Shown here one piece after another: positions 48,171 through 53,337 of a stretch of DNA of 64,000 nucleotides. The stretch's first letter is position 1; every line of letters begins with the position of its first letter. The notes below the pieces were generated by a model that saw nothing but the letters and a program-made list of their open reading frames with translations, was not told where the DNA came from and did no database searches. Made by a program: the position numbers and the translations under genes. The stretch is from Acetomicrobium hydrogeniformans ATCC BAA-1850 (GTDB lineage Bacteria; Synergistota; Synergistia; Synergistales; Acetomicrobiaceae). The DNA lies in the NCBI RefSeq assembly GCF_000160455.2, contig NZ_ACJX03000001.1:1932001-1996000 (forward strand), in the 5' to 3' direction.

Positions 48171-49997
48171 TTATTCTACCGTAACGCTCTTAGCTAAGTT
48201 CCTGGGCTTGTCTATTTCGCATCCGCGCTTTTTGGCCACGTGGTAGGCAAAAAGCTGTAAGGGCACGACCGTCACGAAGGGAGAAAACTCCTCCAAAGTT
48301 GATGGAACGTATAAGACATGGTCCGCGTCACTCGCCAGTCGCTCGTCGCCATCGAAACCCACTGCAATTATAGGAGCGTGCCTTGCCTTTGCCTCCTGTA
48401 TATTGGACAATGTTTTCTCGTAAAGGCTGTCTTTGGGTGCAACGACCACCACAGGCACGTTTGGATCGATCAACGCAATTGGGCCGTGTTTCATCTCGCC
48501 TGCGGCGTAAGCTTCGGCGTGAATGTAGGATATTTCCTTTAGCTTCAATGCTCCCTCGAGGGCTACGGGGAAGGACATCCCCCTTCCCAAAAACAGGAAG
48601 TTTTTGTAATCTGCAAATTTCCACGCCAGATCTTCGATGGAGGGCTCGCGTTCCAATATAGTCTCTATCTTGTAAGCCAGCTGAATCATTTCGTCGGTCA
48701 ATTCCTTTTGCTTTTGATCGGATAGGGTGCCTTTAATTTTTGCTATATACAGCGCCAGCAGGTAGAGGGAAGTTATCTGTCCCATAAAGGTCTTTGTCGC
48801 CGCTACCCCTATCTCCGGACCGGCTTTGAGAAGCAAAAAGTCATCGCAGCTTCTTGCAAGCGTAGAACCCTGAACGTTAGTGACTGCCAATGAATACGCC
48901 CCTGATTCGCGAGCTTTTCTTTGAGCTGCAAGGGTATCGGCAGTTTCTCCCGATTGAGAGACGAAGACTACCAAAGTATCAGGGGAAATCTTACTGTCCC
49001 TGTAACGATATTCGGAGGCGATGTCTACCTTTATATCCAGATCAGTCCAACGTTCGAAAACCCTTTCAGCGATTAGCGATGCATAATAGGATGTTCCGCA
49101 GGCAACTATGTGTATTGCCTTGAATCCCTTGATGGTCTCTTCGTCCATGGCGAGTTCGCCCGACAGGTCCACCTTTCCGTCGTGGACCCTACCTTTGATA
49201 GTAGCTCTGCAAACTCCTCCCTGCTCGTGGATTTCCTTCAGCATATAGTGAGGATATCCGCCCATCTCGGCCATCGATAGATCCCATTCTATAAAAAAGC
49301 TTTTTTTCTCGATGGGCATTCCCCTTTCGTCCCACAGCTTAATTCCCCGGGGCGAAAGCTCTGCAATGTCCCCGTCGTCCATGTATATAACTTTCCTCGT
49401 GTAGGGAAGGATGGCCGGAATATCTGAAGCGCAAAGTGCCTCGCCATCTCCCTGTCCCAACACAAGGGGTGAGCCCTTGCGCATGCAGTATATGTGATCG
49501 GTATCATCTCTGTTTAGTATCGCCAAAGCATAGGAACCCCTCAACCTAGATTGCAGGTACGTGAGGGCATTTAACATATTGCCATCGTATACTTTATAGA
49601 GCAAATGAGCTATCACTTCTGTATCCGTCTGAGAAGCGAAGGTAATGCCCTGGGCAGATAGCTCATCTTTAAGTTCGTGATAATTTTCTATTATGCCGTT
49701 ATGAGCCAGGACAAAACGCTTATATCCGTCCGAGTGAGGGTGGGCGTTAACCGCGGAGACTCCGCCGTGCGTAGCCCAACGGGTATGGCCTATACCGATG
49801 TTGCCCTTTGGAGCGCGATTGGAGACGATGCGCTCGAGGTCAGAGACCTTTCCAACTTCCTTTATGATTTCTATTTCTTTGTTGTTAAGGACAGCAATGC
49901 CTGCCGAATCATATCCCCTGTATTCAAGTCTTTTCAGACCGTCCAAAAGCACACCACAAACATCTCTATAGCCTATATAGCCGACTATACCGCACAA
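48171..49997 (-). CDS. glmS: glutamine-fructose-6-phosphate aminotransferase GlmS
   Basis: GlmS makes glucosamine-6-phosphate for cell-wall and LPS precursors. The N-terminal Ntn glutaminase domain needs Cys directly after the start Met. The frame reads Met-Thr-Leu-Cys-Gly-Ile, so I place the start at the TTG (49997-49995) with Cys as residue 2, instead of the ATG at 50003 which would leave Cys fourth. AAAGGA lies upstream. The result is 608 residues, the usual length. Two SIS sugar-binding domains (about residues 285-430 and 455-595) and the C-terminal AKSVTVE are standard. The leader contains a glmS ribozyme, so expression should fall when glucosamine-6-phosphate rises. Confidence 0.95.
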   Translation of the reverse strand: MCGIVGYIGYRDVCGVLLDGLKRLEYRGYDSAGIAVLNNKEIEIIKEVGKVSDLERIVSNRAPKGNIGIGHTRWATHGGVSAVNAHPHSDGYKRFVLAHNGIIENYHELKDELSAQGITFASQTDTEVIAHLLYKVYDGNMLNALTYLQSRLRGSYALAILNRDDTDHIYCMRKGSPLVLGQGDGEALCASDIPAILPYTRKVIYMDDGDIAELSPRGIKLWDERGMPIEKKSFFIEWDLSMAEMGGYPHYMLKEIHEQGGVCRATIKGRVHDGKVDLSGELAMDEETIKGFKAIHIVACGTSYYASLIAERVFERWTDLDIKVDIASEYRYRDSKISPDTLVVFVSQSGETADTLAAQRKARESGAYSLAVTNVQGSTLARSCDDFLLLKAGPEIGVAATKTFMGQITSLYLLALYIAKIKGTLSDQKQKELTDEMIQLAYKIETILEREPSIEDLAWKFADYKNFLFLGRGMSFPVALEGALKLKEISYIHAEAYAAGEMKHGPIALIDPNVPVVVVAPKDSLYEKTLSNIQEAKARHAPIIAVGFDGDERLASDADHVLYVPSTLEEFSPFVTVVPLQLFAYHVAKKRGCEIDKPRNLAKSVTVE

Positions 49998-50044
49998 AGT
50001 CATTTCATCCTTTCTATTTTCCCGACACAAGGAAGATTGTCGCC

Positions 50045-50190
50045 TCCTTTGTCCCGCAGATCGCTCCACGGTTTTGTAAGACGACTTACTGGCCTACCTT
50101 CCCAGGCCACGGGGGCATCCGCCGATAGCTTCGATTCTCCCCCAACCTCGTCAACTGGTCTGCAACCAGTCCCGGCGCTTGACCACACTA
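50045..50190 (-). ncRNA. glmS self-cleaving ribozyme
   Basis: The minus strand upstream of glmS carries the ribozyme core in order: AAGCGCC with cleavage expected before G50178, a P1-type hairpin ACTGGT/ACCAGT (50170-50152), TTGACGAGG (50154-50146), ATCGAA (50135-50130), and CGGCGGATGCCCCC (50124-50111). A GGCCT...AGGCC stem (50108-50091) and a GTAAG/CTTAC stem (50089-50077) follow. These conserved blocks and spacings match what I know of the glucosamine-6-phosphate-dependent glmS ribozyme. It ends about 40 bases before the glmS start. Confidence 0.9.
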
Positions 50191-50279
50191 CCGCTGATTC
50201 CGTAAATGTCTAAAAGTATCTTCCGATGCCCTTCACCTCCTTTGAGCCGAACAACATCTCTGCATTCTCTCTACATAAA

Positions 50280-50319
50280 GAAGAGAGATGGGCACTTCTT
50301 GAGGAAGTGCCTCTCTCCG
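50280..50319 (-). promoter_or_regulatory. hairpin at the 5' end of the glmS leader
   Basis: A long stem (GGCACTTC/GAAGTGCC extended by AGAGAG/CTCTCT pairing with a small bulge) begins a few bases after the predicted transcription start. It may stabilise the leader RNA. It could also end read-through from the BCCT gene, though no T-run follows on the minus strand. Confidence 0.5.
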
Positions 50320-50328
50320 CCTTTTGTC

Positions 50329-50357
50329 AGTATATCTAAAAACCCGGAAATTATCAA
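50329..50357 (-). promoter_or_regulatory. glmS promoter
   Basis: Minus-strand TTGATA (50357-50352), 17-base spacer, TATACT (50334-50329). A transcription start near 50322 gives a leader of about 144 bases before the ribozyme cleavage site. The remaining part of the 420-base gap between the BCCT and glmS genes shows nothing further. Confidence 0.65.
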
Positions 50358-50417: not shown

Positions 50418-51938
50418 TCAGCTTTCAATCTCCCTTAAAGCTGCCTCGTCGGATTTTAAGGCCTTCACCAGAGAATAGCAGGCAAGGATCATGATAATAG
50501 CGAAAGGAGCTGCGGCAGCTATGGATGCTATTTGCAGTGCCTGCAGTCCTCCTCCCATCAATAGCACAAAGGCCAGTGCTGCTTGCAATACTCCCCAAAT
50601 TGCCATCTTTTGTCTGGGCGGGTTTAGGTCTCCTTGAGTCGAGTACATCGATAGGACGAAGGTCGCAGAGTTGGCTGAGGTTATGAAAAACGTAGAGATC
50701 AATATTACCATTACTACGGACATTATCATCCCCAAAGGATAGTGCATGTACATTTCAAAGACTCCCGTGGAAATGTCCGTGCTCACGGTAGAGGCGATAT
50801 TTGCCAAGCCCTTAAGCTCCAAATAAAGAGCTGAGGTTCCAAACACGGCAAACCAGGTAAAACAACCCAATGCTGGGACGACGAGCACTCCCGTAACGAA
50901 TTGTCTTATAGTCCTTCCCTTCGATATCCTTGCGATAAAGGAGCCCACAAATGGCGCCCAGGCGATCCACCAGGCCCAGTAAAAGAGCGTCCAACCTCCG
51001 AGCCACTGCCTGAATTCTCCGCCATATGGAGCCAGGGCAAAACTTTCGGGAACAACGTTAGCCAAATATTCGCCTATACCCGTAAGAAGGGATTCCAATA
51101 TGGAGATGGTTGGCCCCAGTGCGAAAAGGGACAAACACAACAGTGTGGCGATAAATAGATTGAAATTGGCAATGAACTTAATGCCCCTTTCCAATCCCGA
51201 TACGGCCGATCCCGTGTAAACAAGACACAATGCCGCAATTATAAGAAATTGGACAGTTATGGTCTGAGGCACCCCGAATATGTATTTTAACCCGCTGTTG
51301 ATCTGCAAGACGCCAAGGCCAAGCGAGGTAGCCACACCTGCGGCCGTCGCAAAAATGGCCAGGACATCCACTAATTTGCCGAAAGGTCCCCTCACGCCCT
51401 TCTCTCCTATGAGGGGAGTAAAAAAGCTGCTGATCAGCCCCGGCGAATCTTTCCTAAACTGAAAATATCCTAATGGCAAAGCGATGACCGTATAAGCTGC
51501 CCAGGGATGCAAACCCCAGTGAAAGAAGGAAATCCTCATAGCATCTGTGGCTGCCTTGACGGAACCCGGTTCAGATGCAAAGGGTGGATTCAAAAAATGA
51601 AATATCGGCTCGCCAACTCCGTAGAATACCAGCCCCACGCCCATTCCGGCAGAAAAGAGCATTGCAAACCATGAAAGGGTGTTGAATTCGGGCTTCGAAT
51701 CGGCAGGGCCGAGCTTCAGTTTTCCGTACTTGCTTATCGCCAATCCGACGGGGAAAACGACGAAAAAGGTCATGGAAAGCATGTACCCCCAGCCGAAGTT
51801 ATGTATGAGGAAGTTAAAGAGGCTGTTTGCCGCCGATCCGAAGCCTTCGGGGGATAAGAACCCCCATATAACTATAGCGGCGATGACTAGCATGGAGATT
51901 ATATATACCGAATTATCCTTGCGATTGTCGTTTATCAT
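50418..51938 (-). CDS. BCCT-family betaine/choline/carnitine transporter
   Basis: A 506-residue, twelve-helix transporter. The Trp-rich helix GWTLFYWAWWIAWAPFVG (about residues 323-340), which forms the trimethylammonium-binding box, is intact and followed by SFIARISKGRTIRQF, typical of BCCT. The ATG at 51938 follows AAAGGAGG with a 7-base spacer; an in-frame ATG at 52010 has no ribosome site and overlaps grdB. It is the last gene of the grd operon, which strongly suggests that its substrate (glycine betaine or a relative) is what the reductase uses. Confidence 0.93.
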   Translation of the reverse strand: MINDNRKDNSVYIISMLVIAAIVIWGFLSPEGFGSAANSLFNFLIHNFGWGYMLSMTFFVVFPVGLAISKYGKLKLGPADSKPEFNTLSWFAMLFSAGMGVGLVFYGVGEPIFHFLNPPFASEPGSVKAATDAMRISFFHWGLHPWAAYTVIALPLGYFQFRKDSPGLISSFFTPLIGEKGVRGPFGKLVDVLAIFATAAGVATSLGLGVLQINSGLKYIFGVPQTITVQFLIIAALCLVYTGSAVSGLERGIKFIANFNLFIATLLCLSLFALGPTISILESLLTGIGEYLANVVPESFALAPYGGEFRQWLGGWTLFYWAWWIAWAPFVGSFIARISKGRTIRQFVTGVLVVPALGCFTWFAVFGTSALYLELKGLANIASTVSTDISTGVFEMYMHYPLGMIMSVVMVILISTFFITSANSATFVLSMYSTQGDLNPPRQKMAIWGVLQAALAFVLLMGGGLQALQIASIAAAAPFAIIMILACYSLVKALKSDEAALREIES

Positions 51939-52011
51939 TCTGTGGCCTCCTTTGTGATGATAAATGTGATGCGCAAAAGGGAGGCTCAAGGCCTCCCATT
52001 TGCTTATCAAG

Positions 52012-53337
52012 CTATATCTTTACCGGAAAAACGGTCTGTTCGTTAATGTCAGTCTCGAGAGCATCGAGTGCCACGCCGACGCGATGGAAGCGCAATTTCC
52101 ATTCGTCTTCCGGCGAAAGGTTGGGGTTTCCAAGGGGATAGGGAACCGCAACACCGGGTACGATGCGGTTTACCCCTACGGTCTTGGCAATATTGATGAG
52201 GTTGCAAATTACCACCACAGGAATGCCCGTGCGTTCGATTTCCTTTGCGATCGTTGACCCGCAACGAGTACAGGTTCCTCAAGTCGCCGTTAAAACTACT
52301 GCTCCTACGTTTCTTTCCTTAAGCTGTTGGGCTATCTCACGGCCCATTCTGGCTGCTTCAGCCTGTGTGGTGCCGGTGCCGACGGTTACGTAATATTGGT
52401 CATCAACCTCTCCGATGCACCCCTCTTTTTGGTACTGGCGTATGGCGTCAAGGGGAAGGACGACGTTGGGGTTTTTGTTGGCCTGCTCTGGATCGTAACC
52501 GGCATGTATTGTCTTAAACTCAGGCGCCGTCAGGCGATCGAGTTTGGAAATGTCGTAGGCGCCCCATTTCGTAGCCGAGCAGGACTGTATCCTGTCGGGG
52601 TTGTCCTTGGGGACGATGCCTCCGGAAGTAACAAGTGCAATCTTTACCTTGCGAAGATCCTTTACTGCTGGGGCTATAGGCACCCTTTCCTGTTTTGGTA
52701 TGGGAAGTTCGGTCTCGTAGGGCTCGCCTTTGAGCTTTTTAAGGAGCATTTCAAATGCCCTGTCGGCTGCGCATTTAGGTTCCACACCAAGGTCCTCGAG
52801 GAAGACCTCATGACGTATGCCTCTTGGAAAGTAGCCTTCCATTGAGGCAGGAAGCAGTTTATCTCCACGAGCTATTTTATCGGCAAAGACAGCCATCTTT
52901 TCGACGTCTTGCTTCATATAGGTTGCACGACGTCCGCCTTTAAATATGTATATGTTGGATTTAAACATCTCCACCGCAGGGTTTTCCTCGTTCATGGAGG
53001 TGATAGCTGGGACATCGAACTTTTCCTTTACGGCCTTGCAGATCGTTCCGCAGGCCACGCCGTAGCGACCTGCATTGAAGGCAGGACCTGCCAGGAAGAC
53101 GTCGAACTTCAATCCCTCAAGCATCTTTAAAATCCGAGCGACCGCTTCCTCAGGATGAGATGCCATGAAGTTGTCCCCGCATATTACGGTATGGGTGATC
53201 TTGACTTCCTTCATGGATTCGTTTAAAAGAAGCCCTGGCCCGACCGGACCTTCCTGCAATACAGGTTCGAAATCGGCGCTTTCTTCTCCTCCCACCTGCC
53301 CGAAGAACTGGTTTATGTAATGAACGGCCTTTAACAT
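52012..53337 (-). CDS. glycine/sarcosine/betaine reductase component B selenoprotein (GrdB/GrdF/GrdH type)
   Basis: This is one 441-residue gene read through an in-frame UGA at 52281-52279. The codons around it give Thr-Ala-Thr-Sec-Gly-Thr-Cys-Thr-Arg-Cys-Gly, the UxxCxxC active site of GrdB-type subunits, with Sec at residue 353. The frame continues to 52012 with the family's normal C terminus, and the total length is as expected. A small stem (ACCTG/CGGGT, about 6 bases after the UGA) is a possible SECIS. The subunit removes the substrate's leaving group with Sec and passes a carboxymethyl group to GrdA. The BCCT neighbour favours betaine (GrdH) as substrate. Confidence 0.93.

Follow-up and report, generated by a model that had tools for sequence, protein, structure and literature searches.

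The glmS ribozyme is best known from Firmicutes, and its appearance elsewhere raises the questions of how it came to be there and what the RNA in front of it does. Both are posed by a 64,000-nucleotide stretch of the genome of Acetomicrobium hydrogeniformans ATCC BAA-1850 (hereafter the window), where an earlier note had claimed a glmS ribozyme with a long structured leader on the minus strand upstream of glmS, in a probable non-Firmicute for which it would be an unusual occurrence or a sign of transfer. Acetomicrobium belongs to the Synergistota, a diderm phylum. Two earlier reports bear on the fate of such RNAs. After glmS cleavage, RNase J1 attacks the downstream fragment at its 5'-OH end and degrades it (PMC3997798). 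On cry3A mRNA, RNase J1 is stopped by a STAB-SD element, which binds the 30S subunit but starts no translation (PMC4113751).

Methods

The glmS ribozymes, their leaders and the GlmS proteins were compared across 188 Synergistota genomes and a Firmicute-side sample of 300 genomes, taken from the phylum of a Symbiobacteriaceae MAG. An upstream Shine-Dalgarno-like sequence was scored as an orphan site when its pairing with the 16S 3' end reached -14 kcal/mol or lower. A replicate set consisting of lower-scoring Firmicute-side ribozymes was obtained once this threshold was fixed. One Synergistota genome whose contig begins at the ribozyme (G005) was left out of the Synergistota orphan-site counts, and matches inside the galU coding sequence were left out of the count of intergenic sites.

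Ribozyme, gene and leader

The claimed ribozyme was recovered as a full-length RF00234 match of 96.3 bits, so that the Rfam comparison proposed in the earlier note ended above the gathering cut-off of 37 bits (E 3.4e-21), and a genome-wide search returned this single copy (Table 1). The sequence blocks on which the claim had rested (AGCGCC, ACGAGG, ATCGAA and GGCGGATGCC) were all found in the ribozyme; the span then given, 50041-50330, takes in leader and ribozyme together, the ribozyme by itself being the shorter element of Table 1. Cleavage is predicted between A-1 (50179) and G+1 (50178), the same coordinates as those of the note. The catalytic-core blocks in the window read A-1/G+1CGCC (the slash marking the cleavage site), UUGACGAGG, AUCGA and UCGGCGGA, and UUGACGAGG contains the G that corresponds to Tte G40. 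A-1/GCGCC was present in 55 of 55 Synergistota ribozyme loci. The ribozyme lies in the glmS 5' UTR, where about 26 nt (to ATG) or 32 nt (to TTG) separate the model end from the glmS start.

Table 1. Features of the glmS locus in the window
Feature	Position	Strand	Remarks
Sigma-70-type glmS promoter, TTGATA-17-TATACT	50357..50329	-	10/12 consensus matches
Hairpin at predicted transcript 5' end	50318..50282	-	About -22 kcal/mol alone
Standalone extended Shine-Dalgarno, AAAGGAGGTGAA	50243..50232	-	65-54 nt before cut site
GCG triplet	50192..50194	-	About 14-16 nt upstream of cleavage site
glmS ribozyme	50190..50029	-	RF00234, model 1-167, no truncation
glmS, isomerising glutamine-fructose-6-phosphate transaminase	48171..50003	-	TIGR01135, 807.8 bits

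Compared with RF00234 members of the Bacillus subtilis type, the element shares the full covariance-model match, A-1/GCGCC, the core formed by GACGAGG and GGCGGAUGCC, the position directly upstream of glmS and the single copy per genome. It differs in its Synergistota host and high G+C (58%) and, at this locus, in a long leader with a hairpin and an orphan Shine-Dalgarno sequence and in the GCG triplet at about -14. The ribozyme itself is thus an ordinary RF00234 member, and the leader is the interesting part.

The gene order is an ORF matching selenoprotein B, then a glycine-betaine BCCT transporter (50418-52010), then glmS. The 5' end of glmS reads ATG-ACT-TTG-TGC (window 49995-50003, minus strand, with the ATG at 50003). 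GlmS requires an N-terminal Cys, and in the congeners the gene starts at the codon immediately before it; TTG 49997 is therefore more probably the start than either ATG 50003 or GTG 50069, the one listed. Further upstream, a SECIS_4 match of 39.7 bits (52241-52278, minus strand) lies immediately 3' of the in-frame stop of ORF 52279-53337 (minus strand); the match of the encoded protein is to betaine reductase selenoprotein B, over its first 350 residues. The stop is probably a selenocysteine UGA, and the ORF as listed would for this reason be cut short.

The promoter claimed in the earlier note held up by its consensus match, with 0.4 promoters expected from shuffling for the region, and it is kept in diverged congeners (TTGATA-17-TATACT in G011, TTGATT-17-TATACT in G014) within a leader that has diverged around it. 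The leader was also structured as claimed: together with the ribozyme it folded better than 200 of 200 shuffles (z -3.3). From promoter to ribozyme it measures about 145 nt and comprises a 5' hairpin followed by the orphan Shine-Dalgarno sequence. Both congeners have a hairpin of altered sequence in the equivalent position, and the hairpin is possibly a 5' stabiliser of the glmS transcript. It matched a lax terminator scan, with the tail CATCTCTCTT and without a real U-run. It can also be read as a weak intrinsic terminator for the BCCT gene, a reading that we do not favour, because the conserved promoter precedes it and the G014 hairpin has no U-run.

The GCG triplet before the cut site was found near -14 in 62% of Synergistota genera, against a background of 6%, and in only 3 of 89 Firmicute-side loci. 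Pairing of the triplet with CGC at +2 to +4 or with the 3' flank was considered and rejected, as adjacent bases fail to extend the helix and visual inspection revealed no consistent partner.

Orphan Shine-Dalgarno sites upstream of glmS ribozymes

The sequence AAAGGAGGTGAA was noticed by side-by-side comparison of leaders. It is near-complementary to the 16S 3' end (-17.4 kcal/mol), the anti-Shine-Dalgarno sequence being assumed from other Synergistota because neither a pattern search nor an RF00177 search found the 16S gene in the A. hydrogeniformans assembly; the usual form, GGAUCACCUCCUU, was confirmed in 33 Synergistota genomes. In the predicted fold of the window's RNA, part of the site is paired. 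All six congeneric genomes have the site (-15.0 to -17.4 kcal/mol against GGAUCACCUCCUUU), which is kept while the remaining leader sequence varies among three lineages.

Such sites are enriched before glmS ribozymes. On the Firmicute side, where 197 of the 300 genomes have the ribozyme, an orphan site was found in 42/79 leaders against 3.3-3.7 expected from dinucleotide shuffles, in 13/29 of the replicate set against 0.9, and thus in 55 of 108 ribozymes combined against 4.6, leaders from related species being not fully independent in these counts. When the 16S tail was permuted 60 times, the mean was 3.2 hits and the maximum 20, compared with 55 for the real tail. A count made with no pairing model gave GGAGGTGA (25), AGGAGGTG (24) and AAGGAGGT (22) as the commonest 8-mers in the 108 upstream regions, all of them fragments of a single extended Shine-Dalgarno sequence, AAAGGAGGTGATG or its AAAGGGGGTGAT variant. 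Regions before FMN, TPP and T-box elements had no orphan site (0/79) in 35 of the Firmicute-side genomes, which were picked largely among site carriers, the rates of 42/79 and 13/29 being the unselected ones. The 8-mers of these control regions are A+T-rich and promoter-like (e.g. TATATAAT and TTGACAAA), and neither GGAGGTGA nor AGGAGGTG occurs there.

About half of the Firmicute-side ribozymes have no site at the -14 threshold. Among named Bacilli, Listeria, Lysinibacillus and Anoxybacillus have the site in a shorter form, AAGGAGG, no more than about 45 nt upstream of the cut, and no orphan site was seen in the glmS ribozyme leaders of Paenibacillus and Acetoanaerobium. In the Synergistota, a site at or below the threshold was present in 12 of 12 loci where the ribozyme is preceded by 45 nt or more of intergenic sequence, and in 13 of all 29 ribozyme loci examined, with about 1 expected. 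In many members of the phylum the ribozyme follows galU almost directly, and the purine-rich matches there are coding sequence. Synergistota glmS leaders without a ribozyme had the site in 1 of 42 cases.

Alternative pairing was assessed within the 42 site-bearing Firmicute-side leaders. No better intramolecular partner for the orphan site was found in 40 of them, and pairing with a CCUCC run in the leader was rejected, being available in only two. G213 (Firmicute side), on contigs C122 and C165, has two glmS ribozymes; the others have one.

Distribution and inheritance

A glmS ribozyme was present in 63 of the 188 Synergistota genomes, always in one copy, and a GlmS-family match in 185. At 97% GlmS identity, the named relatives are Acetomicrobium MAGs. 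In a FastTree phylogeny of 119 GlmS proteins, drawn from the midpoint and unsure in its deepest branches (G005 and G002 included), 81 Synergistota proteins (51 with and 30 without the ribozyme) fell on one side of a branch with an SH-like support of 100. This trunk holds 51 of the 52 ribozyme-bearing Synergistota GlmS, apart from the sampled Firmicutes. Its ribozyme-less proteins form one nested group, which points to a single loss of the ribozyme within the trunk. The taxonomic check suggested in the earlier note thus places the genome in Acetomicrobium and its GlmS in the Synergistota trunk.

A group of Synergistaceae without the ribozyme (L123, L125, L129, L130, L134 and L140-L142) has a GlmS beginning MCGILGY, which falls not in the main trunk but close to the proteins of Firmicutes and Symbiobacteriaceae. 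Here, an apparent replacement of the glmS gene accompanies the absence of the ribozyme. Among other diderms, the ribozyme is carried by Cetobacterium (Fusobacteriota) and, as a control, Deinobacterium, and a diderm host is therefore not exceptional.

Discussion

The glmS ribozyme of the window is vertically inherited, and we consider it probable that it acts together with a STAB-SD-type docking site for the 30S subunit, which its cleavage removes. When glucosamine-6-phosphate is scarce, the RNA would remain uncut, and a 30S subunit parked on the orphan site, aided by the 5' hairpin, would block 5'-to-3' decay by RNase J, so that GlmS is made. When glucosamine-6-phosphate is abundant, the ribozyme would use it as cofactor and cut at 50179/50178, stripping hairpin and orphan site together and leaving a 5'-OH end exposed to RNase J; the glmS mRNA would therefore be lost. 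RNase J was found in 116 of 116 high-quality Synergistota genomes, including that of A. hydrogeniformans. Binding of 30S and stabilisation of the RNA are proposed here by analogy with STAB-SD, and cofactor-dependent cleavage and RNase J decay in Acetomicrobium by extension from Bacillus, where they are established. The wider proposition, that in Firmicutes and Synergistota about half of the glmS ribozymes are paired with a 30S-parking orphan site that confers RNase J resistance, the ribozyme cutting this protector off, seems to us evenly balanced between true and false.

The STAB-SD of Bacillus thuringiensis cry3A (PMC4113751) is likewise a Shine-Dalgarno-like 5' UTR sequence that can pair with the 16S 3' end, in a host with an RNase J gene; it does not direct translation, and the site described here has no usable start codon. 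The present site differs in being followed by a self-cleaving ribozyme, which would cut it off in response to a metabolite. Initiating ribosomes are reported to shield hbs mRNA from RNase J1 (cited in PMC3997798). The ribosome is again a barrier to 5'-to-3' decay, but hbs has a true ribosome-binding site (RBS) and start codon, whereas the orphan site has no start codon.

Other explanations of the orphan site have to be weighed. The locus could hold a plain glmS ribozyme whose orphan site has no role in decay and either arises as a by-product of the purine content of the leaders or survives from an ancestral glmS RBS. This would agree with the leaders that have no site, and purine-rich glmS leaders do raise the shuffle expectation; however, the combined Firmicute-side count far exceeds that expectation, and the complementarity spans 9-12 nt at positions that differ between unrelated leaders, which suggests that it is maintained. 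Moreover, the glmS RBS was the weaker of the two in 35 of 36 cases, with a median of -10.7 kcal/mol against -17.4 kcal/mol for the orphan site, and a by-product or relic is an unlikely explanation. A few loci invite a different reading, in which the site serves as RBS for a short leader peptide and translation of that peptide shields the RNA or influences how the ribozyme folds: in a minority of leaders a well-spaced start codon opens an ORF that extends into the ribozyme (e.g. G227, G301 and G216), and G018 of the Synergistota has a 5-codon ORF. Yet a start codon follows the site in 11 of the 42 Firmicute-side leaders, with 11.1 expected, and none stands at usable spacing in the window, Listeria or Lysinibacillus; because start codons are no commoner than chance, we regard a leader peptide as quite unlikely.

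A ribosome standby site, from which a parked 30S subunit moves to a weak glmS RBS past the ribozyme and raises translation instead of stability, would suit the modest strength of that RBS and its place behind a stable structure. The RBS, however, lies about 220 nt downstream of the orphan site, known standby sites are much closer to theirs, and this function is unlikely. As for origin, the abundance of ribozymes on the Firmicute side might suggest recent horizontal transfer of ribozyme and glmS from a Firmicute, but the phylum-wide presence in Synergistota and the separation of their GlmS trunk from the sampled Firmicutes give no support to recent transfer into Acetomicrobium, which we hold to be extremely improbable. 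A transfer long ago, at the root of the Synergistota, is possible. Of the earlier note's claim about the host, the non-Firmicute identity therefore stood, and the view of the ribozyme as an unusual occurrence or a sign of transfer gave way to the Synergistota counts, the GlmS tree and the other diderm carriers.

No description of a composite leader of orphan Shine-Dalgarno and glmS ribozyme, and no paper on the ribozyme together with Synergistetes, was found in the open-access papers searched; the key papers on distribution (McCown 2011/2012) lie outside that search and may mention them. PMC3997798, the one listed paper to name both glmS and STAB-SD, does not connect the two in the passages covered.

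Taken by itself, the ribozyme does no more than add a phylum to the range of a known class. If the proposed docking site and its removal are real, classic glmS regulation would include a step not described before, in which a metabolite triggers the loss of a ribosome-based 5' stabiliser; this would explain why cutting at this position turns the gene off. STAB-SD elements would then have a broad natural role, and in vivo reporters and antibacterial screens that use the ribozyme without its leader would miss part of the switch.
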